NCBI GenBank assembly: GCA_004762155.1
Contig: SIHP01000013.1
Span: 62,001 to 126,000 of the forward strand
Source of the DNA: Flavobacteriaceae bacterium
GTDB lineage: Bacteria > Bacteroidota > Bacteroidia > Flavobacteriales > Flavobacteriaceae
DNA length: 64,000 nt
Direction: 5' to 3'
Shown here: piece by piece, positions 4,332-17,918 of the stretch
Layout of the letters: every line of letters starts with the position of its first letter
How positions within the stretch are numbered: the first letter of the stretch is position 1
The notes under the pieces: generated by a model
What the model saw: the letters and a program-made list of their open reading frames with translations, nothing else
Database searches by the model: none
What the model was told of the DNA's origin: nothing
Translations under genes and position numbers: made by a program

Positions 4332-4350
4332 AACGCAACTAAGTTGCGTT
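4332..4350. promoter_or_regulatory. Zur-like operator 1 overlapping the -33 region of the merC/folE promoter
   Basis: AACGCAACT-A-AGTTGCGTT is a perfect 9-1-9 inverted repeat. Two further copies stand in the intergenic region of the Fur-family gene at 6902 and 6940. Its right arm contains TTG (4344-4346), which lies 20 bp before a good -7 element (TACTTTTG, 4367-4374). A bound repressor would therefore block RNA polymerase. Fur/Zur-family proteins bind palindromes of this size. The metal (zinc) is inferred from the genes controlled. Confidence 0.85.
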
Positions 4351-4366
4351 AAAAGATATTCTTGAT

Positions 4367-4374
4367 TACTTTTG
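4367..4374 (+). promoter_or_regulatory. Bacteroidetes -7 promoter element for merC-like/folE
   Basis: TACTTTTG matches TAnnTTTG exactly and lies 20 bp after a TTG inside operator 1. Transcription would start near 4380. This rules out the longer TTG-initiated reading at 4372 for the next gene and supports the ATG at 4402. Confidence 0.75.
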
Positions 4375-4401
4375 CACCTTAGTTGTATTAATAAAGTCTT
4401 A

Positions 4402-4806
4402 ATGTTATTTATAAAACAAAAATCTGATATTTTAGGAGCCGCTGCAAGCACATTGTGTTTAATTCACTGTATTGCTACTCCTTTTATTTTTATAGCACAA
4501 ACATGTTCTATCACTTGTTGTGATGCTACTCCTACTTGGTGGAAATTTATTGATTATTTTTTCTTAACCATTTCTTTCTTTGCTATTTATAGATCAACAC
4601 AAACAACATCAAGCAATTGGATAAAACCTATGTTATGGTCAAGTTGGTTTTTACTATTAATAGTAATTGCAAATGAAAAATTCACTTGGTTTGCCTTGCA
4701 TGATAGTTTTATATATGTTCCTGCTATTTTATTAACAGTACTTCATTTATACAATCAAAGATATTGTCAATGTAACACCACTAAATGTTGTACTAATGAA
4801 GGATAA
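4402..4806 (+). CDS. MerC-like domain membrane protein
   Basis: This inner-membrane protein of 134 residues has four hydrophobic segments and a MerC-type Cys arrangement: GAAASTLCLIHCIATPF in helix 1 and a CSITCCD loop after it. It ends in a Cys cluster (CQCNTTKCC). MerC proteins carry soft metal ions across the inner membrane. In Bacteroidetes this family is common beside zinc-limitation genes, and mercury need not be the substrate. ATG 4402 is chosen because the promoter's -7 box ends at 4374. The 3' end overlaps folE by 11 bp, so the two are coupled. Operator 1 directly upstream predicts repression when metal is plentiful. Confidence 0.8.
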   Translation: MLFIKQKSDILGAAASTLCLIHCIATPFIFIAQTCSITCCDATPTWWKFIDYFFLTISFFAIYRSTQTTSSNWIKPMLWSSWFLLLIVIANEKFTWFALHDSFIYVPAILLTVLHLYNQRYCQCNTTKCCTNEG

Positions 4807-5458
4807 AGAAGAAATTAATATCGTAGGTGATAACCATTATTCTGCAAATACAGAAACACCTTTAAGAGCTGATGCTTTTGAGAAATCAGATGATGAAAAG
4901 ATTAAAAACATTCAACACCATTTTGAACAAATAATGCACGAAATGGGACTCGATTTAACTGATGATAGTTTATCTGGAACTCCATATCGCGTAGCAAAAA
5001 TGTATGTAAAAGAATTGTTTTATGGTTTAAATCCAAGTAATAAACCAAAACTTTCTGTATTTGAAAACAAGTACGGATATAAGAAAATGTTGGTAGAACA
5101 AAACATTACTATTGACTCTTCTTGCGAACATCATTTTTTGCCTATTATTGGACATGCACACATAGGTTATATTCCGAAAGATAAAGTAATAGGATTGTCT
5201 AAAATTAATCGTTTGGTTGATTATTATGCACATCGTCCGCAAGTTCAAGAAAGATTAGTACTTCAAATACTTAAAGACTTGCAAAATATACTGGAAACAA
5301 AAGATGTTATTGTAGTTGTAAATGCCAAACATTTATGTGTTTCTTCCAGAGGTATAAAAGATAAAAATAGCTTTACAACTACGTTAGAATATGGAGGTTG
5401 TTTTTCTAATAAAACAAAACGTAAAGAGTTTTTAAGTATCATAAATCAACAATTATAA
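4796..5458 (+). CDS. folE: GTP cyclohydrolase I (FolE type), probably a metal-limitation paralogue
   Basis: FolE converts GTP to dihydroneopterin triphosphate, the first step of folate and pterin synthesis. The 220-residue protein has the zinc-site motifs CEHHF (about residue 110) and HLCVSSRGI (about residue 181), and the substrate block IGLSKINRLVDYYAHRPQVQERL. The usual Cys/His/Cys zinc ligands are thus retained, so it is type IA and not the zinc-independent FolE2. It overlaps the MerC-like gene and precedes a COG0523 GTPase under a Zur-like operator. In many bacteria a second GTP cyclohydrolase travels with COG0523 genes as a zinc-starvation response, and I infer the same role here. Confidence 0.92.
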   Translation: MKDKEEINIVGDNHYSANTETPLRADAFEKSDDEKIKNIQHHFEQIMHEMGLDLTDDSLSGTPYRVAKMYVKELFYGLNPSNKPKLSVFENKYGYKKMLVEQNITIDSSCEHHFLPIIGHAHIGYIPKDKVIGLSKINRLVDYYAHRPQVQERLVLQILKDLQNILETKDVIVVVNAKHLCVSSRGIKDKNSFTTTLEYGGCFSNKTKRKEFLSIINQQL

Positions 5459-5561
5459 AAATATAGCATAGTAAATTTAAATAGACTACCTGTTTTATAA
5501 TATTCATTCATTGTATATCTTGGTGTTTTAATACAAAATGCAAATAACTATTTTTTAAAAT

Positions 5562-6479
5562 ATGGAAGCTATTATTACAATTGTTGGTTTTTTAGGAGCT
5601 GGTAAAACAACACTTTTAAAACATTTAATTGCTAATTATATAGCTAATGGCTGGAATCCGTTTATTGTTCTTAATGATTACGAAAACGCTACTCTAGATG
5701 CGCTTCAGCTTACTGATAAAATAGATTCAAATTGGATTAAACCGCTTACAGGGAGTTGTATTTGTTGTAGCGGAATACATGAATTAAGAAATTATGTAAA
5801 CCAAATTCCTGAGCGAACAAAAGGAATTACGTTAATTGAAGCAAATGGAACTTCTGATGCTTGTTCTTTGATGGAATTTCTTGGTGTTGGATTACATGAT
5901 CGGTTTTTACCTCCTATTCAAATTTCTGTTGTTGATGTTAAAAACTGGCAAAAAAGAGGAGAACATAATGAACTTGAATTAAATCAGATTCAGGTTTCTT
6001 CTTTAATTGTGCTTACACATCTTTCAAAAGCATCAGAAATTAGACAAAATTTTGTTATTGGAGAACTTAAAAAGCTTAATCCTTATGCCAAGATTTTAAC
6101 AATGGATGCTATTGATATTTCGCTTCTTCCTGAACTTTTACCTTCTAAAAACACAGCAAGTAAATTTGAACATCAAAAAACACATTGGGCTTCTTGTTCT
6201 ACTGACTTACCAAATTTACCAGATGTAAAATGTATTGATGATATTTGTAATGCTCTTCCTAAAAGTATTCTAAGAGTAAAAGGTTGTACAAAAATTGGAA
6301 ACGAAAATAAACATACTTATTTTGAACGAAATCCAGATGGAGAAGTATTTATTAGGCCTTTTAATGGAACGCCTACAACAGGCTCAAAACTCCTTACTAT
6401 TGGTCCAAAAAGTGAAATTACTTTACTCAAAAAAGCAATTAAAGAAAGCCTTTATAATGCAAGTTTGAGACTATCTTAA
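5562..6479 (+). CDS. COG0523 (CobW/YciC-like) GTPase metallochaperone
   Basis: This 305-residue G3E-family GTPase has a P-loop GFLGAGKTT at residues 9-17, the metal-binding CxCC motif (GSCICCSG, about residues 65-72), a switch region with LIEANGTSD, and a VLTHLSKASE stretch in the NKxD region. COG0523 proteins deliver zinc or other metals to client enzymes and are a hallmark of Zur regulons. The C-terminal CobW domain follows and lacks the long His-rich tail of some relatives. It lies 103 bp after folE, with a possible weak promoter (TATCTTGG) between them, and converges on the Fur-family gene 19 bp away. Confidence 0.9.
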   Translation: MEAIITIVGFLGAGKTTLLKHLIANYIANGWNPFIVLNDYENATLDALQLTDKIDSNWIKPLTGSCICCSGIHELRNYVNQIPERTKGITLIEANGTSDACSLMEFLGVGLHDRFLPPIQISVVDVKNWQKRGEHNELELNQIQVSSLIVLTHLSKASEIRQNFVIGELKKLNPYAKILTMDAIDISLLPELLPSKNTASKFEHQKTHWASCSTDLPNLPDVKCIDDICNALPKSILRVKGCTKIGNENKHTYFERNPDGEVFIRPFNGTPTTGSKLLTIGPKSEITLLKKAIKESLYNASLRLS

Positions 6480-6498
6480 AAATTAAAAAAAGAAATAA

Positions 6499-6879
6499 TT
6501 AATTAAAACACTGTTCACATGTTCCTTGTAATAATACCTGAGAAAAATGAACTTTACGATTAGGGATTTCAGGAATAACAACTGTTTCAGACAAACAATC
6601 TACTTTACCGCAATCTACACATTGAAAATGAGGATGTACATCATGATGATGATGCGCTGAACAATTATTACATTTTGCATACCATTTATGTCCGTTTTTA
6701 CCAAGAAAAGAATGTAAAACTCCATCATCTTCTAGCTTGTCTAAAGCACGATAAATAGTAGTTTTATTCATTTCAGAATCAAGTCTTTCTATTAAAGTAA
6801 TAACAGAAATAGCACTTGAGCTTTTCTCAAACTCTTCCAATAATAATTTAACTGACTTTGTTTTTCTTACAACACCCAT
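6499..6879 (-). CDS. Fur-family metalloregulator, probable Zur
   Basis: This 126-residue repressor has an N-terminal winged helix (STAT-like stretch MNKTTIYRALDKLEDDGVLH, about residues 37-56) and a C-terminal dimerisation domain. That domain carries a His-rich sensor segment (CSAHHHHDVHPHFQC) and two Cys pairs (CVDC, CEQC) that form the structural zinc site. Two 19-bp palindromes lie just upstream (6902, 6940) and a third at 4332, so autoregulation and control of both flanking operons are predicted. Genes under the boxes (COG0523, folE, a receptor) point to zinc and not iron or peroxide. The start codon lies only 4 bp beyond a -7 element (6884-6891), suggesting a leaderless transcript. Confidence 0.85.
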   Translation of the reverse strand: MGVVRKTKSVKLLLEEFEKSSSAISVITLIERLDSEMNKTTIYRALDKLEDDGVLHSFLGKNGHKWYAKCNNCSAHHHHDVHPHFQCVDCGKVDCLSETVVIPEIPNRKVHFSQVLLQGTCEQCFN

Positions 6880-6883
6880 GTTA

Positions 6884-6891
6884 CAAATATA
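6884..6891 (-). promoter_or_regulatory. -7 element for the Fur-family gene
   Basis: Read on the minus strand, TATATTTG is an exact TAnnTTTG. It ends 4 bp before the ATG at 6879, so transcription should begin at or within a base or two of the start codon. Operator 2 lies immediately upstream, about 10 bp away, in the -33 region. Confidence 0.6.
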
Positions 6892-6901
6892 ATATATTTT
6901 T

Positions 6902-6920
6902 AACGCAACTTAGTTGCGTA
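6902..6920. promoter_or_regulatory. Zur-like operator 2
   Basis: AACGCAACT-T-AGTTGCGTA is the same 9-1-9 palindrome as at 4332, with one arm mismatch. It covers the -33 region for the plus-strand promoter (TTG at 6914-6916) and lies upstream of the minus-strand -7 element. One bound dimer could therefore repress both directions. Confidence 0.85.
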
Positions 6921-6935
6921 AGTAAAACTTTTGCC

Positions 6936-6958
6936 TATATTTGCAACTAAGTTGCGTT
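6936..6958 (+). promoter_or_regulatory. -7 element overlapped by Zur-like operator 3 (promoter of the ABC/TonB operon)
   Basis: TATATTTG (6936-6943) is an exact TAnnTTTG and lies 19 bp after TTG in operator 2. Operator 3 (centre 6949; GCAACT-A-AGTTGCGTT) covers the last bases of the -7 box and the start point. The left arm of operator 3 is imperfect because it must also serve as the -7 box. The resulting leader before the ATPase ATG would be about 240 nt. No gene was seen in 6960-7190. Confidence 0.75.
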
Positions 6959-7191
6959 AGCAACATTTGTTAGTAATTAAACATATTTGCACATTTTTTG
7001 AATTTTTGTGCATTTGGGTTAATTAAAATTGTGCCTATTGAATCTAACCTATTTTTATTTTCATTGAAGGATTATTGAAAAAAAATGGATTCATTAGGCC
7101 AATTTTAAGTAAAAATTAAGACTACCAGTTAATAGATCAAATGTATTACACTTCATCGCTACTAAAAACTTTTCAAAAAAGATAATTTATA

Positions 7192-7884
7192 ATGTTAGAA
7201 GCCAAAAAGCTTTCCAAGCGATATAACGATAAGTTAGCGCTTAAAGATTTAAGTTTTTCTGTTGCACCTGGAGAAATTTTTTGTTTGCTTGGTCAAAATG
7301 GGGCAGGAAAAACTACAACTATTAATATTTTTTTAGGATTAATAACAGCAACATCAGGAGAGGCTTTACTAGATAATAATTCCGTGTTTGGTAATAAATT
7401 TTCACGAAGTTCTATAGCCTATATTCCTGAAACTGTACAATTATATAGTGATTTTACTGGTTTAGAAAATTTAGATTTTTTTAGTCGATTAGCTGGTTTT
7501 ACCTACACAAAAGAAAAGTTAATTCAACTATTACAAGAAGCCAATTTACAGGAAGATGCTTATCAAAAAAAATTGGAAACCTATTCTAAAGGAATGCGTC
7601 AAAAGGTTGGTATCGCAATAGCATTAGCAAAAAATGCTTCTTTTATTCTTATGGATGAACCTACCTCTGGTTTAGATCCCAAAGCATCTGTAGAATTTGC
7701 CAAAACATGTAAAAAATTAGCAGCAAATGGTGTGGGGATTTTTATGGCTACTCATGATATTTTTAACGCAGTAAATATTGGTTCTAGAATAGGAATAATG
7801 AAAGAAGGAACTTTAATCCATACTACAGAAACTGCTAATATAACTGCTCAAGAACTACAAGATTTATACATTAAAACAATTTAA
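7192..7884 (+). CDS. ABC transporter ATP-binding protein (CcmA/NosF-like) of the palindrome-controlled system
   Basis: This 230-residue cytoplasmic ATPase has Walker A GQNGAGKTT at about residues 35-43, signature YSKGMRQKVGIAIAL near 128, Walker B FILMDEPTSGLDP near 150, and a switch His in MATHD. It belongs to the ABC-2 group, whose permeases lack a solute-binding protein. The likely partners are the two DUF3526 permeases downstream. The TonB-dependent receptor gene lies between them, starting 18 bp after this stop, so all four genes form one operon. The direction of transport is unknown: ABC-2 systems usually export or act mechanically, yet the operon looks like a metal-uptake unit. Confidence 0.88.
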   Translation: MLEAKKLSKRYNDKLALKDLSFSVAPGEIFCLLGQNGAGKTTTINIFLGLITATSGEALLDNNSVFGNKFSRSSIAYIPETVQLYSDFTGLENLDFFSRLAGFTYTKEKLIQLLQEANLQEDAYQKKLETYSKGMRQKVGIAIALAKNASFILMDEPTSGLDPKASVEFAKTCKKLAANGVGIFMATHDIFNAVNIGSRIGIMKEGTLIHTTETANITAQELQDLYIKTI

Positions 7885-7902
7885 CCTACTTAATAATTAA
7901 TA

Positions 7903-10413
7903 ATGCGATTAAAAACAAATTTTAAATACATTGTGTTTTCAATAATCTTATTGGCAGCACAATTTGGTTTTTCTCAATCTAAAATAACTGGTAAAGTTTT
8001 AGATACTGATAATACAGCAATAGAAGGGGCTACAATTATCGTTGAAAATCAAGAGCATCAAAAAAAAGGAACAACCTCTGGCTCAGATGGTGCTTTTAAT
8101 ATCAAAGTAAAATCGAGCGGAACATACAATTTAAAAATAACTTTTGTTGGATACGAAACCTATTCAAAAGAGTTAACAATAGCTGACAATCAGCATATAG
8201 AATTAAACGAAATTATACTTAAAGAAGCTGCTGAATTATTACAATCTGTAGAAGTAATAGGTAGAAAACGCCAAGATTATAATAGTGATTATTCTTTTTC
8301 GGCTTCAAAAATAGCTATTAAGAATAAAGAATTACCACAGGCAGTAACTACTGTAACCAAAGAGCTTATCTCAGACAGGCAAGCTTTTCAGTTAGTAGAT
8401 GCTGTTAAAACAGTAAGTAATGTTTCTGCAACAGGTTTATATAACCACTATAATATTCGTGGTATTACTCAAGCAGATGATGGACAAGTAGTTAACGGAA
8501 TGCGTACACGTCAATATTATTTTTTACAACCAATAACCTCAAATTTAGAACGTGTAGAAGTAATTAAAGGGCCTTCTTCAGTTACTTTTTCAAGTGCAGA
8601 TCCAGGTGGTACTGTAAATATGGTTACTAAAAAGCCATTAGACGAAAAACGTAGTGAAGTATCAGTAGCCACTGGTAGTTATGGTACTTTAAGAGCAACA
8701 GTAGATTTCACAGGGCCTTTAAATGAATCAAAAACATTATTATACCGTTTTAATGCAGCTTATCAAGATGCAGATTCTTTTAGAGATGTAGTAAATAATA
8801 ATGCTATTTTAATTTCTCCTTCTTTTAGTTATGTTCCTGATGAAAACACTTCGTTAAATGTTGAAATGATTTACAACAATGCTGAAGGGAATTTAGATAG
8901 AGGTCAGCCTATTTTTGGAGCTATTAATGGTGAATATTCTATTAATAGTACTCCAATAACTATGAATGTTGGTGCGTCAAATGATCATTATAAAACTAAG
9001 GAATTGACATTTATGGCGAGTTTCAACAAAAAATTTACAGAGAACTTTGGTTTTAACGCACAATACATGAAACAAACATGGGATGAAGATTTAGCTGAAC
9101 ATAGAGTTGGAGGTTCAATGGTTGATATTGATGGCAATGTAATTCCTACTTTGGTAAGATTACGATATGATGAAAGACAACAATTTTGGGAAACAGATAA
9201 TTTTAGTACGTATGTTACTTACGATATTAAAAAAGACAACATTACTAATAAAATTTTAGTGGGTTATGATGCGACTCGCTGGGAAAGAAAAATTGGTGCT
9301 GGATTTCTTAGAGCTAGAAGATATTTAACAGTAAGTGGAGGACAATCTAATTTTGATGCAAGTAATCCAGATAATTTTCAGCAAATGACTATTAATGGTG
9401 TAACGACTCCTGTTCCTGCTGCAGCTTATTTTGATTTAGAAAACCCGTTTAATGGAGCTAGAGATACAAGTGATTACAGTCTTTCTCAATTATCAATCCC
9501 AGCAAACTTAAACACATCTGATGGTATTTATTTACAAAATCAGTTTAAAATAGGAAAATTATCAGCTTTAGTTAATTTAAGATACGAATGGTTTAAAGAT
9601 GTTTTTAATTATGAAGGAGATGAAGAAGAATTTAAAACTAGTGCTTTTGTACCTAGAATAGGTTTAACCTATGAAATTAACGATAAATTAAGTGTTTACT
9701 CAACTTATTTAGAAGGTTTTCAACCTCATACAAATACCGTTTCATTATCACCAACAGCAGAAGGTTTCTTTTGGGCAGCGTCACCAGCAAGATTTGATCC
9801 TTTAGAAAGTACCTTAAATGAAGTAGGACTTAAAGGAGAGTTTTTAAATGGTAAAGTATTCGCTAACCTTGCCTTTTTTGAAATCAATCAAAAAAATATT
9901 TTAATGGGAGATACTTATGATTTAGACAACCTAACAACAAGAGGAAAACAAAGAAGTAGAGGTTTTGAAATGGACTTTTCGGGTTATGTTTTACCAAACT
10001 TTCAAATTACAGCTTCTTACGGTTATACAGATGCTAAAATAATAGAAGATGCTATAGAAGAATTTATAGGAGAACGTATTGGTGGAGCTCCAAAACATAA
10101 TGCTAATTTATGGGGACGTTATGATTTTACAACTGAAACCTTAAAAGGTATTGGATTAGGTTTTGGTGCACAATATGTAGATGAAAGATATACTTGGTAT
10201 AATCCTACGTACGCTACAGATAGAGTATTATTACCAGAATATGCAATATGTGATGCTGCTGTATATTACAAACCAAATAATGCGGGTATTCAATTAACTT
10301 TAAAAGTAAATAATTTATTCAATGATACGTATTGGCTAGGAGGTCTTAATCCGTCAAGATTAGGTCCTGGAGCTCCAAGAAACTTTTTATTAAATGCAAC
10401 CTATAAGTTTTAA
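7903..10413 (+). CDS. TonB-dependent receptor, siderophore-receptor type
   Basis: This 836-residue outer-membrane protein has a signal peptide ending near FGFSQ, then a carboxypeptidase-D-like domain (ITGKVLDTDNTAIEGATI, residues 27-110). The plug domain follows (ELPQAVTTVTKELISDRQ, YNIRGI, LERVEVIKGPSSVTFSSADPGG), and a 22-strand barrel ends in NATYKF with a terminal Phe. The plug is of the FhuE/FpvA siderophore type and lacks the SusC signature. Cargo could be a metal chelate. The palindromic operators upstream and the neighbouring zinc-limitation genes favour a zinc complex, but this is inference. It shares an operon with the ATPase before it and, after 95 bp, the permeases. Confidence 0.9.
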   Translation: MRLKTNFKYIVFSIILLAAQFGFSQSKITGKVLDTDNTAIEGATIIVENQEHQKKGTTSGSDGAFNIKVKSSGTYNLKITFVGYETYSKELTIADNQHIELNEIILKEAAELLQSVEVIGRKRQDYNSDYSFSASKIAIKNKELPQAVTTVTKELISDRQAFQLVDAVKTVSNVSATGLYNHYNIRGITQADDGQVVNGMRTRQYYFLQPITSNLERVEVIKGPSSVTFSSADPGGTVNMVTKKPLDEKRSEVSVATGSYGTLRATVDFTGPLNESKTLLYRFNAAYQDADSFRDVVNNNAILISPSFSYVPDENTSLNVEMIYNNAEGNLDRGQPIFGAINGEYSINSTPITMNVGASNDHYKTKELTFMASFNKKFTENFGFNAQYMKQTWDEDLAEHRVGGSMVDIDGNVIPTLVRLRYDERQQFWETDNFSTYVTYDIKKDNITNKILVGYDATRWERKIGAGFLRARRYLTVSGGQSNFDASNPDNFQQMTINGVTTPVPAAAYFDLENPFNGARDTSDYSLSQLSIPANLNTSDGIYLQNQFKIGKLSALVNLRYEWFKDVFNYEGDEEEFKTSAFVPRIGLTYEINDKLSVYSTYLEGFQPHTNTVSLSPTAEGFFWAASPARFDPLESTLNEVGLKGEFLNGKVFANLAFFEINQKNILMGDTYDLDNLTTRGKQRSRGFEMDFSGYVLPNFQITASYGYTDAKIIEDAIEEFIGERIGGAPKHNANLWGRYDFTTETLKGIGLGFGAQYVDERYTWYNPTYATDRVLLPEYAICDAAVYYKPNNAGIQLTLKVNNLFNDTYWLGGLNPSRLGPGAPRNFLLNATYKF

Positions 10414-10452
10414 TCGCAAAACGACAGCCAAGAGGTTAATTCCTATAGGATT
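10411..10452 (+). repeat. Dispersed repeat, family D, copy 1 (starts at the receptor stop codon)
   Basis: TAATCGCAAAACGACAGCC, then a spacer and AGGATTT. The second copy follows the other TonB receptor's stop codon at 17766 (TAATCGCAAGGCGATAGCT). A third in reverse orientation lies at 38897 (TAATCGCAGGGCGACAGAC). The element is short and its role is unknown. Confidence 0.5.
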
Positions 10453-10508
10453 TCATCAAAAGTAAAAATATATAATTCTTTAAAATGCACTAAAGCTATT
10501 TACTACTT

Positions 10509-11954
10509 ATGAAAAAACAAATCATTCTTTTAATAGCAAAACAATTTTTTAAAAAGACCTTTTTTACTAAAGGTCTTTTAGTCCTTTTATCGTGTTTCTT
10601 ACTTGTTTTGGTTTATATAACTATAACTGGATGGAATGCTTTTGAACAGCACGATCATGCTGTTGAGCATCATCAAGAATCATCAAGAAAAAGTTGGGAA
10701 GATAATCCAGATAAACATCCGCATAGAATGGCGCATTTTGGGTCTTTCACTTTTCGTTTGCAACATCCTTTGCGTATTTTCGATTCAGGAATTGAAAGTT
10801 ATACTGGAAATTCTATTTTTTTAGAAGCACATAAACAAAATACGGCCAACTTTTCAGAAGCTAGTTTATCAACGGGTTTGATTCGTTTTGGTGATTTAAA
10901 TATCGCCCTGTTATTACAACTAATTTTACCTTTGATTATTTTTTTCTTAGGATATTCGGCAATTACTGCTGAAAAAGAAAATGGAACACTTAAAATCATG
11001 TATACTCAAGGTGCAACTATAAAAGAAATCCTTTTAGGAAAGTCACTTGGTTTATTTCTTGTTTCAACTGTATTCTTTTTACCTTGTTTACTGTCATTAT
11101 GGAGTGTTTCTTTTTTAGAAAATCACACTGTTAACGGCGCTATTATTATCAGATCTTTATTAATTACCATAAGCTATGTATTATTTTACATCATTTTATG
11201 TTGTATTACTATACTAATATCTGGTAAGAGTGCTAATTCTAATAAGGCTTTACTAACCTTATTAAGTATTTGGTTATTATTTTTTATTATTGTTCCAAAG
11301 ACAGCTCAAGTTGTTGGTAACGCTTTTCATCCGAATCTTTCAAAAATAGAATTTAAAGCTGCTATTGAAGCAGAGATCGCCAAACAAGGAGACAGTCATA
11401 ATCCGAATGATCCTTATTTTAATTCACTTCGTGATTCTATTTTAAAAGCTAATAATGTAACTGATGTAAAAGATTTACCATTTAATTATAGTGGTTTTTT
11501 AATGAGTAAAGGAGAAGAACAATCGGCAACTATTTATAAAAGTCAACATCTAAAACTAATAGATAGTTACAGAAAACAAAACAGTATCTCCAAAAGATTA
11601 GTGTTATTCAATCCATATTTAGCAATTAAAAATATATCCATGAGTTTTTCAGCTACTGATTTTGATACTTATGTGAGTTTTTTATCCCAAACCGAAAAAT
11701 ATCGATATGAACAATCGCAATACATGAACAACTTACAAATGAAGTTCATTAGTAATAAAGCAAAAAGTAGCGAGGGAAAAGTTCATGTTGTAGGCAAAGA
11801 AAATTGGAAATCTTTACCAACGTTTAATTATAAATATATAACCGTTATTAAAACGATATCAAATCAACTACTTTCCATACTAACACTTTGTGTTTGGTTA
11901 TTATTAACACTGTTTTTTATGAGTAAATCTGCTAACCGTTTTAAAATTATATAG
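10509..11954 (+). CDS. ABC-2 type permease, DUF3526 family (first of pair)
   Basis: This 481-residue inner-membrane protein has one N-terminal membrane helix (about 20-40), a large periplasmic loop, and then about five helices. The loop opens with a His-rich segment (about residues 48-78, including QHDHAVEHHQ and DKHPHRMAHFG) and continues with the DUF3526 block FDSGIESYTG...FLEAHKQN. His residues in this loop could bind metal. LGYSAITAEKENGTLKIM is the typical ABC-2 coupling region that contacts the ATPase. It pairs with the next gene, which starts 2 bp after this stop, and with the ATPase at 7192. DUF3526 permeases have no settled substrate. Confidence 0.85.
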   Translation: MKKQIILLIAKQFFKKTFFTKGLLVLLSCFLLVLVYITITGWNAFEQHDHAVEHHQESSRKSWEDNPDKHPHRMAHFGSFTFRLQHPLRIFDSGIESYTGNSIFLEAHKQNTANFSEASLSTGLIRFGDLNIALLLQLILPLIIFFLGYSAITAEKENGTLKIMYTQGATIKEILLGKSLGLFLVSTVFFLPCLLSLWSVSFLENHTVNGAIIIRSLLITISYVLFYIILCCITILISGKSANSNKALLTLLSIWLLFFIIVPKTAQVVGNAFHPNLSKIEFKAAIEAEIAKQGDSHNPNDPYFNSLRDSILKANNVTDVKDLPFNYSGFLMSKGEEQSATIYKSQHLKLIDSYRKQNSISKRLVLFNPYLAIKNISMSFSATDFDTYVSFLSQTEKYRYEQSQYMNNLQMKFISNKAKSSEGKVHVVGKENWKSLPTFNYKYITVIKTISNQLLSILTLCVWLLLTLFFMSKSANRFKII

Positions 11955-11956
11955 CT

Positions 11957-13303
11957 GTGTATACATTATTAATCAAACAATTTCTGAAAACAAAAACTGT
12001 ATTCTTAGCTTTCGGAATCCTTATATTTTTGTCTGTTTTAAGTATTAGTACTGGAAAGCAATTTTTAAATCAAAAAAAGGCAACAATAGCTAAAACTGTA
12101 ACAGAACAACAAAAACATATAGAAACGCAAACCAGCCTTCATAAAGACGATTTGGGCTTGTTGTTATATTATTTAAAGTTTTCTTTTATTAATGATTTAA
12201 ATCCACTTGCAGGAATCGCTATAGGACAAAGTGATGTGAATTCTCAAATACAAAATGTAACTATTTTAAATCTTGAGGGACAAAAATATAATACTGATTT
12301 AGTAAACCCAATGCGTTTACATGTTGGAAATTTAGATGTTAGCTTTTTGATCATTTTTCTTTTTCCGTTGGTAATTATCGCACTAAACTTTAACCTTTTA
12401 TCAGAAGAAATAGAAAAAGGAACTTGGAAAATGATTACCATTCAAGGAAAATCTTCTTTTAACTTTTTAGTAAAGAAATTAGCTATCCGAATACTTTTTG
12501 TTTTTGCTGTTTTAGGATTACTTTTTATAGCTACTAAGTTCGTTTTAAACATTCCTTTTAATGATAGTTTTTTACACCTAATAATCACCAGTTATTTTTA
12601 TATATTATTCTGGTTTGCTGTATGCTTTTTTGTAATTCTACTAAGAAAATCATCAAATACAAATGCAATTATTTTATTAACGAGCTGGCTTGTATTGGTT
12701 GTTTTTTTACCTGTTTTAGTTAATAATTATGTTACCAATACATATCCTGTAGATGAAGCTTTTGCGATGACAATAAAGCAACGAAATGAATACCATAAAA
12801 AATGGGATACTGATAAAAAAGCAACAATGGATAAGTTTTATACACATTATCCTCAATTTGCCAAATACGGAGTAAAAGAAGAAGGTTTTTCTTGGTTGTG
12901 GTATTATGCGATGCAACAAATGGGAGATGACGAATCTAAACAAGAGCGAGAAGCTATGTATAAAAAGATTGAAAAGAGAGAGTTACTCAGCAAAAAAATA
13001 GCGCAGTTTTTTCCTCCTTTACAAACACAATTAGCTATGAATACTATTGCCAATACTAGCTTAACACATCAAGTAAAATTCTTAAATGCCACTACTAAAT
13101 TCCATGAAGATCTACGTTTACAATTTTATCCTAAAATTTTTGAAAGTAATGATGCAAATACAGTAAATTGGAAAAAATATAAACCTATCCTTTTTAAATC
13201 TGAAACTGAATTTAGCCTTACTAAAAACCTGTTTTACATGGCTTTAATTATTTTTATACTAATTGGAAGTAGTGTTTTTAAAAATCGAAAGTATTTTTAT
13301 TGA
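11957..13303 (+). CDS. ABC-2 type permease, DUF3526-like (second of pair)
   Basis: The 448 residues have the same topology as the preceding permease: one N-terminal helix, a periplasmic domain, a helix with the ABC-2 coupling block (LNFNLLSEEIEKGTWKMITIQG, about 150-171), four more helices and a C-terminal one. It lacks the His-rich loop of its partner, so the two subunits are specialised. The start is GTG at 11957, 2 bp after the previous stop, which indicates translational coupling. It ends the operon that begins at 7192 and converges on the small Cys-rich gene 16 bp away. Confidence 0.82.
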   Translation: MYTLLIKQFLKTKTVFLAFGILIFLSVLSISTGKQFLNQKKATIAKTVTEQQKHIETQTSLHKDDLGLLLYYLKFSFINDLNPLAGIAIGQSDVNSQIQNVTILNLEGQKYNTDLVNPMRLHVGNLDVSFLIIFLFPLVIIALNFNLLSEEIEKGTWKMITIQGKSSFNFLVKKLAIRILFVFAVLGLLFIATKFVLNIPFNDSFLHLIITSYFYILFWFAVCFFVILLRKSSNTNAIILLTSWLVLVVFLPVLVNNYVTNTYPVDEAFAMTIKQRNEYHKKWDTDKKATMDKFYTHYPQFAKYGVKEEGFSWLWYYAMQQMGDDESKQEREAMYKKIEKRELLSKKIAQFFPPLQTQLAMNTIANTSLTHQVKFLNATTKFHEDLRLQFYPKIFESNDANTVNWKKYKPILFKSETEFSLTKNLFYMALIIFILIGSSVFKNRKYFY

Positions 13304-13319
13304 AAATAAAAAGATAAGT

Positions 13320-13505
13320 TTAAGAAACTGCTTTTAATTCAACAGTTAAAGGACATCTTTTACAATTAATTCCTTTCTTTTTGTATTTATTACAACATTT
13401 ACTTTTTGGCTTAATGCAATTAGACGAACATACAGCATCACAAGTAGTTGATGCTAATGTAACTACAGGTGTAGCTTTTTTTATTTCTTTGTAAAATATA
13501 ATCAT
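13320..13505 (-). CDS. Small Cys-rich protein, unknown function
   Basis: This 61-residue protein begins MIIFYKEIKKATPVVTLA and then carries nine Cys residues, including C-x3-C-x3-C and a CC pair in a Lys-rich stretch, ending CKRCP. It has no clear signal peptide. I recall similar small Cys-rich proteins as conserved hypotheticals in Flavobacteriaceae. The Cys spacing suggests a metal-binding or metallothionein-like role, which fits its position between two metal loci. The start at 13505 is preferred over the longer frame because a -7 box (TATATTTG, 13530-13537 on the minus strand) lies just upstream and overlaps the longer start. Confidence 0.7.
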   Translation of the reverse strand: MIIFYKEIKKATPVVTLASTTCDAVCSSNCIKPKSKCCNKYKKKGINCKRCPLTVELKAVS

Positions 13506-13529
13506 CTGATATAAAAATAAATACGTGTG

Positions 13530-13537
13530 CAAATATA
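13530..13537 (-). promoter_or_regulatory. -7 element for the small Cys-rich gene
   Basis: TATATTTG on the minus strand lies 24 bp before the ATG at 13505. The perfect inverted repeat at 13542-13586 lies immediately upstream and could hold a regulator. Confidence 0.6.
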
Positions 13538-13541
13538 TATC

Positions 13542-13586
13542 TTATTTAGAATTAATAAAAACATTATCCTTATTAATTCTAAATAA
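13542..13586. promoter_or_regulatory. Perfect 17-bp inverted repeat between divergent promoters
   Basis: Arms 13542-13558 and 13570-13586 are exact reverse complements (TTATTTAGAATTAATAA and its complement), with an 11-nt spacer. The structure lies between the divergent promoters of the Cys-rich gene and the CNGKC gene. It is AT-only apart from one G:C pair and lacks a T-tract, so an operator is likelier than a terminator. Confidence 0.55.
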
Positions 13587-13642
13587 AATGTTTTTAGCTA
13601 AAAAAAGAAGTTAATATTATTGTTTAATTATTTCCCTTGTCC

Positions 13643-13650
13643 TAGTTTTG
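13643..13650 (+). promoter_or_regulatory. -7 element for the CNGKC gene
   Basis: TAGTTTTG matches TAnnTTTG, with TTG (13620-13622) 20 bp upstream as the -33 element. The predicted start of transcription near 13657 leaves a leader of only about 9 nt before the TTG start at 13666. Confidence 0.65.
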
Positions 13651-13665
13651 CAACAAAGTTAAATT

Positions 13666-14037
13666 TTGATTAAAAAACTGAGCATATACATTTTTGTAGT
13701 GTTGTACATAATTGCTATGTTACGACCAATTGCTCCGTTTGTAGAATATGTAATTAACTACGATTATATAGCAAAAGTACTTTGTATTAATAAAGACAAG
13801 CCAGAACTAAGCTGTAATGGTAAATGTCAATTAATGAAAAAACTAGAGCAACAACAGCAAGACGATTTTAATTCTTTACGCATTAATATGGATGAATATC
13901 CTATTGGTTTTGTTAGTGTTTTGGACTTTTCTGAAAAGAAAAGGAATACAAACACAAAACGCAATAAGATTTTGTCATATAAATCTAATTATTACTTCAC
14001 ATTTCATCAAGAAATATTTCATCCACCAACGGTTTAA
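13666..14037 (+). CDS. Small membrane-anchored protein with a CNGKC motif, metal locus
   Basis: The 123-residue protein starts at TTG with an N-terminal hydrophobic helix (residues 3-24), followed by APFVEYVINYDYIAKVLC and the motif CINKDKPELSCNGKC, giving three Cys residues in a conserved-looking frame. A Gln-rich stretch follows (KKLEQQQQDD), and the C-terminus is positively charged. I recall small proteins with this motif near outer-membrane metal receptors in Bacteroidetes, with no assigned function. It begins a run with the Met/His-rich outer-membrane protein, a TonB receptor and a PepSY protein. A role in copper or other soft-metal handling is inference. Confidence 0.65.
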   Translation: MIKKLSIYIFVVLYIIAMLRPIAPFVEYVINYDYIAKVLCINKDKPELSCNGKCQLMKKLEQQQQDDFNSLRINMDEYPIGFVSVLDFSEKKRNTNTKRNKILSYKSNYYFTFHQEIFHPPTV

Positions 14038-14117
14038 ATTACATAAATAACTAAGCAATAGAGTTATCAATTAGCGTTGATTACTCAAAAACAGTATGTA
14101 ATATTAAATCATAATTA

Positions 14118-15161
14118 ATGAAATTAAATAAAATAATTTTAGCAGGAATTTTAGTATTCCTAAGTCAACAATTCACTGCACAAGAAAAAGAGAGTACAAA
14201 CAACGAATGGAAATCTGGAAGACCAGATGGACATGCACCAATTAGTGTAATGGGAGATCATTATCATGGAAAAGGTGATATAATGTTTTCTTACAGATAT
14301 ATGAATATGTATATGGAAGGATTACAACAAAACGGAAATTCTATTACTAATGACGCTGCTCATGATGCTGGTTATATGGTAACGCCTTTAAATATGCCAA
14401 TGAGCATGCATATGTTAGGTGTTATGTATGCGCCTTCTGATAAAATTACCTTAATGGCAATGGCAAATTATATAACCAACGATATGGATTTGCAAATGAG
14501 AATGACTACAGGAATGGTAGTAGATTTTTCAACAGCTTCTTCTGGTTTTGGAGATGTAAAACTTGGAATATTATACAAGTTTATTAACAACAATCGTCAA
14601 TCTTTACATGGTTTGGTAAATTTCTCTATTCCTACTGGTAGTTTAGAAGCTACAGATGAAACTCCAATGTCTTCTCCAAACGAAATCTTATTGCCTTATC
14701 CAATGCAAGTTGGTAGTGGAACTTTTGATATGGATTTAGGTTTAACGTATTTAGGTCAAAATAATCAAGTTTCTTGGGGTTCTCAATTAAAAGCTACGTA
14801 TCGTTTTGGAAGAAATGAATACGATTATTCTTTAGGAAATCGTTACAGTTTAAATTCTTGGTTTGCAGTAAAAACTTCAGATTGGTTAAGTATTTCTGCC
14901 AGAATAGAAGGAGCTGCTATTGAAAAAATAAATGGTGCAAATCCTAATTTAACACCAATGATGGTAACTACAGCAGACATTGCAAACTCTGGCGGATACC
15001 AAATTAATGGTGGTTTAGGTTTTAATATTTATGCTTTTAAAGGATCGTTGAAAAATGTTCGTTTTGGTGCTGAATATGCATTGCCTATTTATCAAGATTT
15101 AAACGGAATTCAATTAGAACAAAAACAAACCATCACTTTAGGTTTACAATATTCAATGTAA
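14118..15161 (+). CDS. Met/His-rich outer-membrane beta-barrel protein, putative copper-related transporter
   Basis: The 347 residues begin with a signal peptide (to FTAQE), then GRPDGHAPISVMGDHYHGKG and a Met-dense stretch: FSYRYMNMYMEG, and near residue 95 NMPMSMHMLGVMYAP and MDLQMRMTTGM. The rest alternates in beta strands and ends LGLQYSM. The block GDHxHxxGxxMxSYRYMxM marks a family of outer-membrane proteins often found with copper genes. Met and His clusters are classical copper(I) ligands. It lies 80 bp after the CNGKC gene and upstream of a TonB receptor. The barrel assignment is firm; copper is inference. Confidence 0.7.
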   Translation: MKLNKIILAGILVFLSQQFTAQEKESTNNEWKSGRPDGHAPISVMGDHYHGKGDIMFSYRYMNMYMEGLQQNGNSITNDAAHDAGYMVTPLNMPMSMHMLGVMYAPSDKITLMAMANYITNDMDLQMRMTTGMVVDFSTASSGFGDVKLGILYKFINNNRQSLHGLVNFSIPTGSLEATDETPMSSPNEILLPYPMQVGSGTFDMDLGLTYLGQNNQVSWGSQLKATYRFGRNEYDYSLGNRYSLNSWFAVKTSDWLSISARIEGAAIEKINGANPNLTPMMVTTADIANSGGYQINGGLGFNIYAFKGSLKNVRFGAEYALPIYQDLNGIQLEQKQTITLGLQYSM

Positions 15162-15240
15162 ACTCAAACACATTAAAAAAAACATATTTAATATAATTTA
15201 TTCGAAGTAATAGCTAAGAAAGTTTACTAAAGAAAGTGAA

Positions 15241-15316
15241 TGTCAGTTCGAGTGATTTTATGAAGTGCAATGCTATAAAATCTTACAGAATCAAGTTCAG
15301 CAGAACTATCGAGAAC
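15241..15316 (+). repeat. Dispersed repeat, family A, copy 3
   Basis: It starts TGTCAGTTCGAGTGATTTTA and ends GCAGAACTATCGAGAACA, homologous to the copy at 2114. It fills the middle of the 273-bp gap between the Met-rich outer-membrane protein and the next TonB receptor. Nothing else was seen in this gap. Confidence 0.75.
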
Positions 15317-15434
15317 ATTTGTAACAAACATCTTTATATAAATTAATTTTCTTTTGGTTTCTCAATTTTAATTGATTAGACAATTTGGTTGTAAAAGCAG
15401 GTAAATTATAATATTTATAATACACACTCATAAA

Positions 15435-17768
15435 ATGAAAAAATTAGCATTAATTTTATTCATAGGCTTACTAACGCCTATGTTAAAAAGTTACGCACAA
15501 ACAACATATAACGGAAAAGTTACTGATAAAAACAACAACCCAATAGTTGGAGCATCAGTAATTTCAACTTCTAATAAAAACAAAGGAACAGCTACCGATT
15601 TTGAAGGTAATTTTACTATAAAACTTAGTAACTCAACTGTAAAAGTAACTTCTGTAGGTTTTCAAACAAAAGAAGTTACACTTACACTTAAATTAAATAA
15701 AATAATTTTAGAACAAGCTACCGAGAATTTAGAAGAAGTTGTAATTTCTGCAAGTAGAGAAATTCAACAAAGAAGTGAAGTTCCTGGCGCAATTGGGGTA
15801 TTAACTGCAAATCAAATAGAAAACACAAAAGCTTTTGGTATAGAACAATTGGTAAATCAAGTTCCTGGTGTATTCATGAGTACGTCAAAAGCAGCCAGTA
15901 ATGAACAACATTTTATGGCTACGCGTTCGCCAATATCAACAAAATCATTGTTTTTATATGTAGAAGATGGTTTGCCTATTCGTCCTGTAGCTGTATTTAA
16001 CCATAATGCTTTATTAGAAATGAACAACACAACTTTTAATCGTGTAGAAGTTTTAAAAGGACCTGCTTCTAGTATTTACGGAAGTGAAGCCATTGGTGGA
16101 AGTTTTAATTTTATCACCAAAAATCCAACAAAAGAATTTGAAGGTTCTTTAGGCGCTCAAATAAACACCATGGGTTTAAGTCGTTTTGAAGCAGAAGCTT
16201 CAACAACTGCAAAAGAAAAATATGGTTTTTATGTTGGTGGACATTATGTACAACGCAAAAACGGACCTGTTGAACATTCAGACTACGAGAAATTTGCGAT
16301 TAGCTTTAAAAACGTAAATGATTTTTCTGAAACTTTAAAATGGACAAATATGGTAACTTTTATAGATTATCGTTCGGATATGTCAGGTTCTATTTCAGAA
16401 GAAGATTATCAGGCTGGTGAATATGAAAGTGATCAAACTTTTACCGAAAGAGTCGCAAGATCTCTTCGTTTTAGATCTACTTTAGACAAAAAATGGAATG
16501 AGAACAACAAAACATCTTTCAATTTTATTTATAGAAATAATGTGATGGATCAAATTCCTTCATATAGAATTAGTCAATGGAGTGGAACTGGTGAAATTAA
16601 TTCTAATACTTTTAGAAGTTATGTTGGTTTGGTACAACACAAAATTAATTTCGATTTTGCTGATGCTTCTTTAATCGTTGGTGCAACTGCCGATTTTTCT
16701 CCACAGGATTATGTTGCAGAAACAATAGCTGTTGTTACAGATGCTGAAACAAATAAGAACATTAGTTACACCGTAAATTCTGGTGATTATATATTAAATT
16801 ATCAAGCTGATATTTTTAATTATGCTGGTTATGCTCAGTTTGAAATTTCTCCATTAGAAAAATTAAAATTAACAGGTGCTATTCGTTATGACGGATTTAG
16901 CTATGATTACGACAATTTAGTAGAAAACCTTATTGGTGTTGCTGATACTAAAGTGACGTATACTAATGTTGCTCCAAAATTAGGGTTTAACTATAACCTA
17001 TCTAAAAACGCAGGGTTTTATGGTAATTATTCTAAAGGATTTACACCACCACAAACATCAACCTTATTTAGAAATGGAGATAATGATGCTGCAGGAAATA
17101 CGGTTTTTGATTTAAAACCTGCTAAGTTTGATAATTTTGAAGTTGGTGGATATTTTACTATTCCATCAAAATTAAAAGTTGACGTTGCTATTTATCAATT
17201 AGACGGAAAAGATCGTTTAATTTCTATTCAAGATGAAAATGATAATTTCTTACAATTAAATGCTGGTAAAACACAGTCTCGTGGTATTGAATTAGGCGTA
17301 AAATATAATTTCATGGAAAATCTTTGGGTTTCGTATAGTGGAAGTTATGCTACACACAAATACATTGACTTTTTTGAAGATGCTATAGATTATTCTAATA
17401 CCGATATGCAAACTGCACCAAATTACTTAGCCAATGCAAGTATTAATTACAAGCCATTAAAAGACCTATTATTGACTTTAGAACACGAACAAGTAGGTGC
17501 TTATAATACAAGTTTTGAAGGACAGGCTGTTGTTGGCGTAGATGCCGCTGATGAGGATATTTTAGGAACATCAACATACAACGGACATAATGTATTTAAT
17601 TTCAGAGCAAATTATACTATAGGTAAGTTTGATGTTTGGGGACAAGCATTAAATATTTTTGACACCTTATATGCCGTAAGAGCTTCTTACAGTATTTGGG
17701 ATCAAGCAAATACGTATAGCATTGGTAATCCAAGAGCATTTCATTTTGGAGTAAAGTATAATTTCTAA
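15435..17768 (+). CDS. TonB-dependent receptor (metal uptake type)
   Basis: This 777-residue outer-membrane receptor has a signal peptide (to YAQ) and a carboxypeptidase-like domain (YNGKVTDKNNNPIVGASVIS, residues 24-105). Its plug contains GIEQLVNQVPGVFMSTSKAASNE and FNRVEVLKGPASSIYGSEAIGG, and its barrel ends in FHFGVKYNF. The plug is of the general CirA/BtuB type and differs from the receptor at 7903. A PepSY membrane protein lies 150 bp downstream, a pairing common for metal or haem uptake. With the CNGKC and Met-rich genes upstream, copper or iron are the likeliest cargoes. Family certain, cargo unknown. Confidence 0.9.
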   Translation: MKKLALILFIGLLTPMLKSYAQTTYNGKVTDKNNNPIVGASVISTSNKNKGTATDFEGNFTIKLSNSTVKVTSVGFQTKEVTLTLKLNKIILEQATENLEEVVISASREIQQRSEVPGAIGVLTANQIENTKAFGIEQLVNQVPGVFMSTSKAASNEQHFMATRSPISTKSLFLYVEDGLPIRPVAVFNHNALLEMNNTTFNRVEVLKGPASSIYGSEAIGGSFNFITKNPTKEFEGSLGAQINTMGLSRFEAEASTTAKEKYGFYVGGHYVQRKNGPVEHSDYEKFAISFKNVNDFSETLKWTNMVTFIDYRSDMSGSISEEDYQAGEYESDQTFTERVARSLRFRSTLDKKWNENNKTSFNFIYRNNVMDQIPSYRISQWSGTGEINSNTFRSYVGLVQHKINFDFADASLIVGATADFSPQDYVAETIAVVTDAETNKNISYTVNSGDYILNYQADIFNYAGYAQFEISPLEKLKLTGAIRYDGFSYDYDNLVENLIGVADTKVTYTNVAPKLGFNYNLSKNAGFYGNYSKGFTPPQTSTLFRNGDNDAAGNTVFDLKPAKFDNFEVGGYFTIPSKLKVDVAIYQLDGKDRLISIQDENDNFLQLNAGKTQSRGIELGVKYNFMENLWVSYSGSYATHKYIDFFEDAIDYSNTDMQTAPNYLANASINYKPLKDLLLTLEHEQVGAYNTSFEGQAVVGVDAADEDILGTSTYNGHNVFNFRANYTIGKFDVWGQALNIFDTLYAVRASYSIWDQANTYSIGNPRAFHFGVKYNF

Positions 17769-17790
17769 TCGCAAGGCGATAGCTAATTAT
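17766..17790 (+). repeat. Dispersed repeat, family D, copy 2
   Basis: TAATCGCAAGGCGATAGCTA begins with the receptor's own stop codon, as copy 1 does at 10411. Confidence 0.45.
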
Positions 17791-17826
17791 TTAATTGTCT
17801 TAACAAAAAATCAAAAAAGAATTAAT

Positions 17827-17898
17827 GTCATCGCTAGGAGCGAAGCGATCTGTTTTATAATAAACGGATTGCTTCTTTCATTATTCATTCGCAATGAC
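17827..17898. repeat. Palindromic dispersed repeat, family B (GTCATtGCgA type)
   Basis: GTCATCGCTAGGAGCGAAGC at the left and ATTCGCAATGAC at the right form an imperfect inverted repeat around GATCTG...CGGATTGCTTC. The element fills the gap between the receptor and the PepSY gene. Related sequences form the tandem block at 52.9-53.2 kb and the arm at 53337. Such palindromes are widespread in flavobacterial intergenic regions and may act as transcription-end hairpins. Confidence 0.7.
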
Positions 17899-17918
17899 GA
17901 TTATTAAATTACTAAAAG

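Follow-up and report, generated by a model that had tools for sequence, protein, structure and literature searches.

A probable zinc-starvation operon of a Flavobacteriaceae bacterium that joins a TonB-dependent receptor to a pair of DUF3526 permeases

Introduction

Why is a receptor of the siderophore type located inside the operon of an ABC-2 transporter, which metal would such a unit serve, and in which direction would the metal move? These questions are raised by a locus in the stretch of Flavobacteriaceae bacterium DNA that we have analysed (64,000 nucleotides, contig SIHP01000013.1, positions 62,001 to 126,000; hereafter, the window), where an ATPase, a TonB-dependent receptor (TBDR) and two permeases of the DUF3526 family follow one another on the plus strand, at positions 7192-13303. 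By computation, we have established the gene content of this operon, the palindromic box that precedes it, the other genes that carry the same box, the conservation of the unit in relatives and the fold of its permeases. We favour the reading that this is a zinc-starvation acquisition operon of the kind of ZnuK/ZnuGHI of Caulobacter, to which we assign a probability of about 0.6, and we take the unit for a zinc importer, or else a periplasmic zinc-release machine, that operates with no substrate-binding protein. Judged by the company of its box, a role of the operon in zinc is highly likely; inward transport by its permease-ATPase pair is the direction that we consider probable.

The operon and its genes

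The operon consists of the following genes:

7192..7884, plus strand: ABC-2 type ATPase, znuG-like (ABC_tran 104.1 bits)
7903..10413, plus strand: TonB-dependent receptor of the siderophore/metallophore type, znuK-like (TIGR01783 above cut-off)
10509..11954, plus strand: DUF3526 ABC-2 permease 1, znuH-like (DUF3526 plus ABC2_membrane_2)
11957..13303, plus strand: DUF3526 ABC-2 permease 2, znuI-like (DUF3526 plus ABC2_membrane_2)

Both permeases score over the DUF3526 cut-off of 25 (97.6 and 96.9 bits), and a search of the 4.69 Mb genome has found the family in these two genes only. The receptor consists of a plug, a barrel and a carboxypeptidase-like domain, and matches the siderophore receptor model TIGR01783 at 287.3 bits (cut-off 223.5); its nearest solved structures are tied, being the CntO metal-pseudopaline receptor (4e-41) and FoxA (4.2e-41). 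In the comparison of the ATPase with the PDB, ABCA domains are top-scoring, and NosF is matched with E 3.2e-32. The genes are separated by 18, 95 and 2 bp, as would suit a single operon; a terminator-like hairpin of 11 pairs that is located within the permease 1 gene (10552-10579) counts against it, such hairpin sites occurring five times in the window against a shuffle mean of 2.5.

A family scan has found neither a PF00950 permease nor a PF01297 binding protein in the operon, which bears out the remark of an earlier reading of this DNA, made from the letters alone (hereafter, the sequence-only reading), that the unit has no substrate-binding protein; the gene order and the coordinates that it had given, behind paired palindromes, are exact. 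No NosD-like partner has been matched among the ten open reading frames (ORFs) scanned at 4796-17768. Identity with the gliding transporter GldA/GldFG was considered and rejected, as both equivalog models are far under their cut-offs (GldF 26.7 bits, cut-off 288.5; GldA 138.6, cut-off 402.6).

The palindromic box and the genes that it heads

Two perfect copies of a palindrome, GCAACTNAGTTGC, are located between the operon and a divergent gene of the Fur family, 38 nt from start to start, and another perfect copy precedes a neighbouring set of genes:

6499..6879, minus strand: Fur-family repressor, probable Zur, divergent from the operon (PF01475 39.2 bits, cut-off 23.1)
6905-6917: putative Zur-box palindrome, copy 1, GCAACTTAGTTGC, perfect site
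6943-6955: putative Zur-box palindrome, copy 2, GCAACTAAGTTGC, perfect site
4335-4347: putative Zur-box palindrome before the MerC-folE-COG0523 genes, perfect site
4372..4806, plus strand: MerC-domain membrane protein (PF03203 70.5 bits; the real start may be further in)
4796..5458, plus strand: GTP cyclohydrolase I (folE), one of three copies in the genome
5562..6479, plus strand: COG0523 (CobW-like) GTPase (PF02492 83.1 bits)

The genome contains five perfect copies, three of them within the window and all of them located between ORFs, where about 0.096 are expected under an i.i.d. model with the base composition of the window. When up to one mismatch is allowed, eight sites are found in the genome, whereas the pattern reversed as a control gives two. 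Each of the three one-mismatch sites falls inside an ORF, and they have been dropped as chance. Within the window only, the excess is weak at up to two mismatches (six sites, shuffle mean 2.31, with 4 of 100 shuffles reaching as many).

The genes headed by the five perfect sites are as follows: site 1 (4335) heads the MerC-domain protein, folE and the COG0523 GTPase, while sites 2 and 3 head the Fur-family gene and the operon. Site 4 (L091), with a molybdopterin-type gene on its other side, heads two minus-strand genes, one of the DUF1826 family and one for a HisI paralogue, this hisI being one of two copies in the genome; DUF1826 is a Zur-linked family. Site 5 (L092, minus strand) heads a carbonic-anhydrase relative, an uncharacterised ORF, PhoX, an ORF of the S9-peptidase type and a second COG0523 GTPase; the carbonic-anhydrase relative matches NF047901, a metal-independent type, at 103.3 bits, under the equivalog cut-off of 350. 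This run behind one box (L092:456-5479) is a possible zinc-sparing operon in its own right. Additional folE, hisI and carbonic anhydrase genes, together with COG0523, are described as Zur targets in several other bacteria in the pertinent passages of a 2018 review (PMC6103462), where the folE target named is folE2, while the boxed copy here is the type I enzyme.

Because the five perfect copies, all intergenic, head genes of the zinc-starvation type, it is very likely that this palindrome is a Zur box, and the content of the regulon likewise points to zinc as the metal. The claim of the sequence-only reading that the receptor and the ABC-2 transporter belong together as a metal unit behind a metal box is supported. 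The Fur-family protein, encoded by one of three such genes in the genome, is a probable Zur, called by regulon content only: seven NCBIfam Fur/Zur/PerR/Irr models are listed for it, all far under cut-off. Elsewhere in the genome, on C21, a ZnuA-like protein and two ABC-3 permeases adjoin a DtxR-type regulator, and the genome scan has found no box there at up to one mismatch; with that regulator beside it and no listed box, this set is more likely a manganese set.

A partner box with two mismatches, at 4374-4386, follows the one at 4335-4347 at a distance of 39 nt. The same spacing of 39 nt is seen in paired boxes upstream of the unit in seven relatives (L004, L010, L016, L019, L020, L025 and L121, the last a locus that has no receptor), and a fixed spacing may reflect two repressor dimers that are bound together.

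Conservation of the unit and of the box in relatives

The sequence-only reading had proposed a search of other genomes for the four-gene order and for its co-occurrence with the palindrome, and both have been found. Our scan of a genome collection with permease 1 has yielded 123 relatives, and 80 loci were retained: the order ATPase-receptor-permease-permease occurs in 75 of the 80 (two of these with a split permease ORF), the order receptor-permease-permease-ATPase in one, and the remaining four have no receptor in the operon, three of these being at contig ends. In the fourth of them, the Myroides locus L076 (2153-7785), a TBDR with a plug domain, together with DUF4876 and DUF6850 genes, is divergent from a permease-permease-ATPase run.

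Boxes were scored in the 76 loci that have a unit gene upstream of permease 1. The strict pattern GCAAC-N3-GTTGC is located within 1.2 kb upstream in 59 of them, and its density differs sharply between the upstream DNA (64 sites in 89.6 kb) and the remaining DNA of the loci (3 sites in 1200 kb). A relaxed scan adds L007, L009, L012, L014, L025, L051 and L058, so that 66 of the 76 loci carry a box; L011 has no upstream DNA to scan.

The unit also occurs on plasmids: 12 plasmid records match, 11 of which were analysed (H9, a near-copy of H8, was left out), with the orders of minus-strand units read by hand. The receptor comes first, followed by the ATPase and the permeases, on Hymenobacter (two), Variovorax (two), Eleftheria and Comamonas plasmids; the order is receptor-permease-permease-ATPase in Spirosoma, ATPase-permease-permease-receptor in Blastomonas, and TBDR, DUF4374 gene, ATPase and permeases in Aureibacter, while the receptor is divergent in Novosphingobium and the Methylocystis unit has none. 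The unit is therefore kept in both Bacteroidota and Proteobacteria, and the adjacency of its genes survives four gene orders within the receptor-bearing group, which speaks for genes that function together. The Caulobacter box GTTA-N5-TAAC, sought with up to one mismatch, has no match upstream of the proteobacterial units on plasmids. The Novosphingobium unit (L096) has a different palindrome, TGATATGTTG/CATCATATCA, of 20 nt, located at L096:5026-5045 between the divergent TBDR and the ATPase and unlike the box of either this genome or Caulobacter.

An additional recurrent neighbour is a small ORF, 80-180 residues long, whose product is hydrophobic at its N-terminus, contains a CxxC motif and has PP at its C-terminus; this ORF directly precedes the unit in 65 of the 74 relatives with enough upstream DNA, and one proteobacterial counterpart is a DUF2946 protein above cut-off. 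At the place tested, this ORF is found neither in the window nor in nine of the 74 relatives; L003 and L004, the nearest relatives of the window, do not have it there. Each of L005 and L006 has another, more distant ABC ATPase gene, at 3487 and 1394, respectively, about 0.6 kb upstream of the unit.

Conserved residues and fold of the permeases

The sequence-only reading had pointed to a periplasmic cluster of histidines at about residues 48-78 of the first permease. The cluster is real, and it is conserved in part: His72 and His76 are invariant, as are His108, Asp295 and His297 further on (each of the 49 aligned sequences has all five); His70 is conserved in 25 of the 49, and His48, His50, His54 and His55 are kept in 12, 12, 14 and 20 sequences, respectively, for which reason these last four have been rejected as a conserved site. 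For permease 2, we have compared the 24 receptor-bearing rows of a 58-row alignment with the 34 others: His280 is present in 22 of 24 against 1 of 34, and His383 in all 24 against 2 of 34. Tyr279 is not kept in L112 or in the rows from Proteobacteria and Hymenobacter, and Trp283 and Asp284 are seen again in rows that have no His72/His76 motif.

The structure of permease 1 was predicted with pLDDT 84.8 and pTM 0.85, and that of permease 2 with pLDDT 85.8. The best match of the permease 1 model is NosY of the NosDFY complex (Foldseek E 8.2e-05), with which VIA-align gives Z 22.7 and an rmsd of 3.0 over 249 aligned residues, the next family being ABCA3 (Z 17.4); a sequence profile of permease 1 against the PDB also retrieves NosY (E 1.3e-05). 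This alignment spans 249 of the 481 residues of permease 1, and the DUF3526 insert is largely outside it.

The wider DUF3526 family

DUF3526 is matched in 47 of 296 sampled Bacteroidota genomes, in 46 above cut-off. From 46 genomes besides our own, 53 loci were taken, 52 of which gave permease ORFs (n=52; L171, whose permease match has two internal stops, was left out). The His72/His76 motif, with its pattern widened to include L117 (PHRMSHYG), is present in 28 of the 52 loci; a TBDR, MerC or COG0523 gene is located within 6 kb in 23 of these 28, against none of the 24 loci that lack the motif; the Fisher p values for this contrast take no account of relatedness. Zur and FolE were also sought within 6 kb of the 52 loci, with no match. 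TBDRs were searched with a flavobacterial receptor profile (E 1e-3, more than 400 residues), which dissimilar receptors could escape. The sequence-only reading would have been contradicted by DUF3526 pairs that occur mainly with unrelated genes, and this is half true: in 24 of the 52 loci, neither a receptor nor a zinc gene is located within 6 kb, but these are the loci without the histidine motif, and the 21 of them that are placed in the tree form a separate group. An anticorrelation between DUF3526 and ABC-3 permeases across the 296 genomes was considered and dropped, with relatedness and manganese-type ABC-3 sets as likely confounders.

A tree was built of 69 first permeases (L165, L173 and L175, with one permease only, were left out). 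In it, 27 receptor-bearing rows, from both Bacteroidota and Proteobacteria, are located on one side of one branch (100/97) and 21 motif-less rows on one side of another (100/100), with receptor-less motif rows between the two groups. The labels count L054 and L075 as receptor-bearing despite a cut upstream flank, and L133 as receptor-less, although it has TBDR-like genes on both sides. Several receptor-less motif rows adjoin a DUF5916-type barrel, a CxxC protein, MerC or COG0523. The Novosphingobium relative with its divergent TBDR falls inside the receptor-bearing group. The TBDR-linked pairs L099, L102, L104 and L105 (in L102, Asn replaces His72) fall outside that group, and therefore the partnership with the receptor has probably been gained or lost more than once. 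In the receptor-less locus L120 (4443-15351), a CxxC protein, a CBM9/DUF5916 protein, an ATPase, two permeases, binding-protein-like genes, a FecCD permease and another ATPase stand in a row; here, the same pump has another partner in the outer membrane.

Comparison with known systems

This kind of operon is known by its regulation from Caulobacter crescentus, which belongs to a different phylum, and the expectation of the sequence-only reading that such a unit would be new was too strong, as the Caulobacter system was published in 2014; the Bacteroidota operon with its own box adds a member to this kind. As described in the relevant passages of Mazzon et al. 2014 (PMC4176598), znuK/znuGHI (CC1517/CC1518-1520) comprises a Zur-repressed ABC-2 ATPase, two permeases and a neighbouring TBDR; mutation of zur raises the expression of these relatives 12- to 41-fold, and at 850 uM EDTA neither znuK nor znuL mutants form colonies, with growth restored by zinc. 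The 2018 review lists znuGHI among the ABC-type zinc uptake systems (PMC6103462). Compared by these descriptions, both systems have an ABC-2 ATPase and two ABC-2 permeases adjoining a TBDR gene, and a palindromic box of a zinc regulon with a Fur-family repressor, which are recognised here by sequence only; further TBDRs and a COG0523 gene are also reported in the Caulobacter regulon. They differ in layout and in box: znuK and znuGHI are separate units, apparently divergent, with the same box read on both strands and the receptor gene outside znuGHI, while here the receptor is located between the ATPase and the permeases; and the box is GCAAC-N3-GTTGC here, but of the GTTA-N5-TAAC type there. 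Among 14 control genomes, DUF3526 is matched in Caulobacter only.

NosDFY is an ATP-driven copper delivery machine that supplies copper to NosZ. The passage on Nos in PMC6530538 still speaks of sulfide supply. As the closest solved metal-related ABC system (PDB 7o0y, 7znq and others), NosDFY shares with our operon the NosY fold, seen in permease 1, and a NosF-like ATPase; NosY, of about 270 residues, has no large DUF3526 insert, and NosDFY works with the periplasmic NosD, whereas no NosD-like gene is found among the neighbours of the operon.

Another comparison is offered by the Lut system of Methylorubrum extorquens, whose LutF we take to be of the ABC-2 type. In the section of PMC7391723 concerned, a TBDR and an ABC transporter take in lanthanides, and mutants of the ABC part hold the metal in the periplasm, from which it follows that such a pair is able to carry metal inward. 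The Lut cluster is described as uniting a TBDR with an ABC ATPase and a permease, as here; it differs in its periplasmic binding protein LutA, its one listed permease gene and its lanthanide metal. The ZnuABC/ABC-3 importers have a zinc-starvation role under Zur (PMC6103462, in its part on these systems), but belong to the PF00950 permease family and use the ZnuA binding protein, neither of which is present in this unit. In the literature that we have searched, neither a description of a Bacteroidota Zur regulon nor DUF3526 was met, and the available portion of PMC11960050 contains no Zur work on its flavobacterium.

Proposed function and alternative explanations

In the zinc-acquisition reading that we favour, Zur would sit on the paired palindromes at high cell zinc, silencing its own gene and the operon, and the operon would be expressed as zinc falls. 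The TonB receptor would bring zinc, bare or complexed, into the periplasm, where the two DUF3526 permeases, forming a NosFY-like membrane dimer driven by the ATPase, would take it with their periplasmic parts, via the conserved His and Asp residues, and pass it inward; with such a built-in periplasmic metal site, a separate binding protein would not be needed. What we infer is that Zur is the protein that binds the box, that zinc is the ligand and the conserved residues its site and, most of all, that transport runs inward.

Several points weigh against this reading. ABC-2 transporters are mostly exporters or machines. The Fur-family protein misses the NCBIfam Zur equivalog NF008646 (21.7 bits, cut-off 167); nine loci (L005, L006, L008, L015, L022, L023, L024, L028 and L031), out of the 76, have DNA upstream to scan and yet are boxless even in the relaxed scan; and the loci are related, being mostly from Flavobacterium, so that their counts are not independent. 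The five invariant residues of permease 1 are common to most receptor-less motif relatives and thus mark the wider family, not this unit, while the Foldseek match of permease 2 is weak, with NosY first at E 0.098. When TBDRs are left uncounted, the link with zinc genes is reduced to 10 of 28 loci against 0 of 24, via MerC and COG0523 only. Lastly, the Caulobacter phenotypes come from znuK and znuL mutants, znuGHI itself not being among the deletions described in that part of the paper (PMC4176598).

The same parts could also serve a machine that moves no zinc across the membrane: the ATPase and the permeases would do mechanical work in the periplasm, stripping zinc from a carrier, a metallophore or the small CxxC protein, and the freed zinc would be handed to another importer or to periplasmic zinc enzymes. 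Mechanical work of this kind is the model proposed for NosDFY, whose NosY is the nearest fold, and the small CxxC/PP protein just upstream of the unit in most relatives (with its one DUF2946 counterpart), as well as the binding protein and the FecCD permease that follow the unit in L120, would suit it. We nevertheless consider this reading rather unlikely, given that the window and nine of the 74 relatives have no small protein at the place tested, that a NosD-like gene is missing among the neighbours, and that no inner-membrane transporter other than the MerC protein is seen at the boxes of the genome.

The sequence-only reading had thought of permeases that export a metallophore and of a receptor that retrieves it in its loaded form. 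For a zinc chelator, this agrees with the ABC-2 fold and with a siderophore-type receptor for which CntO is a joint top match in the PDB, and the genome does contain candidate chelator genes, namely two IucA/IucC genes on C11 (search for NRPS-independent siderophore, NIS, genes with PF04183) and a non-ribosomal peptide synthetase (NRPS) cluster on C45 (PF00668). No box, at up to one mismatch, is located near either of them, in a search limited to these two chemistries, and the recurrent partners of the unit are instead MerC, COG0523, the DUF5916-type barrel and the small CxxC protein; metallophore export and re-uptake is thus unsupported, and we regard it as improbable. The NRPS cluster itself (C45:139653-176806) shows 12 condensation-domain matches. 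A pump that removes surplus zinc or copper would have in its favour that ABC-2 exporters are common and that NosDFY handles copper. It would be most surprising behind a box shared with zinc-starvation-type genes and beside a receptor of a class that imports, the more so as the Caulobacter relatives are, in the passages cited, raised in the zur mutant (PMC4176598).

Downstream of the operon, at 13666-19157, the window holds a further set that has no Zur box and that perhaps serves another metal: a small protein with CNGKC and a C-terminal PP, a Met- and His-rich ORF that has no Pfam match, a second TBDR and a PepSY_TM protein.

Implications

Beyond this operon, it is conceivable, at somewhat less than even odds, that DUF3526 pairs with the histidine motif make up a family of their own, of ATP-driven zinc machines. 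Their core would resemble NosFY, a periplasmic domain of the pump itself would bind the metal instead of a substrate-binding protein, and the partner in the outer membrane would be interchangeable, being a TBDR in one group and DUF5916-type barrels with the small CxxC protein in others. Such pairs would act, as importer or metal-release device, as the zinc-starvation transporter of many Bacteroidota and some Proteobacteria. If the zinc-acquisition reading is true, zinc would enter through an ABC-2 fold with no substrate-binding protein, contrary to the rule of thumb that this fold exports, and an ABC-2-fold metal importer or release device would be a mechanism not yet shown for zinc. Our analysis also outlines a zinc regulon of Bacteroidota and its box, and the reading can be tested directly by way of these two and of the conserved residues.

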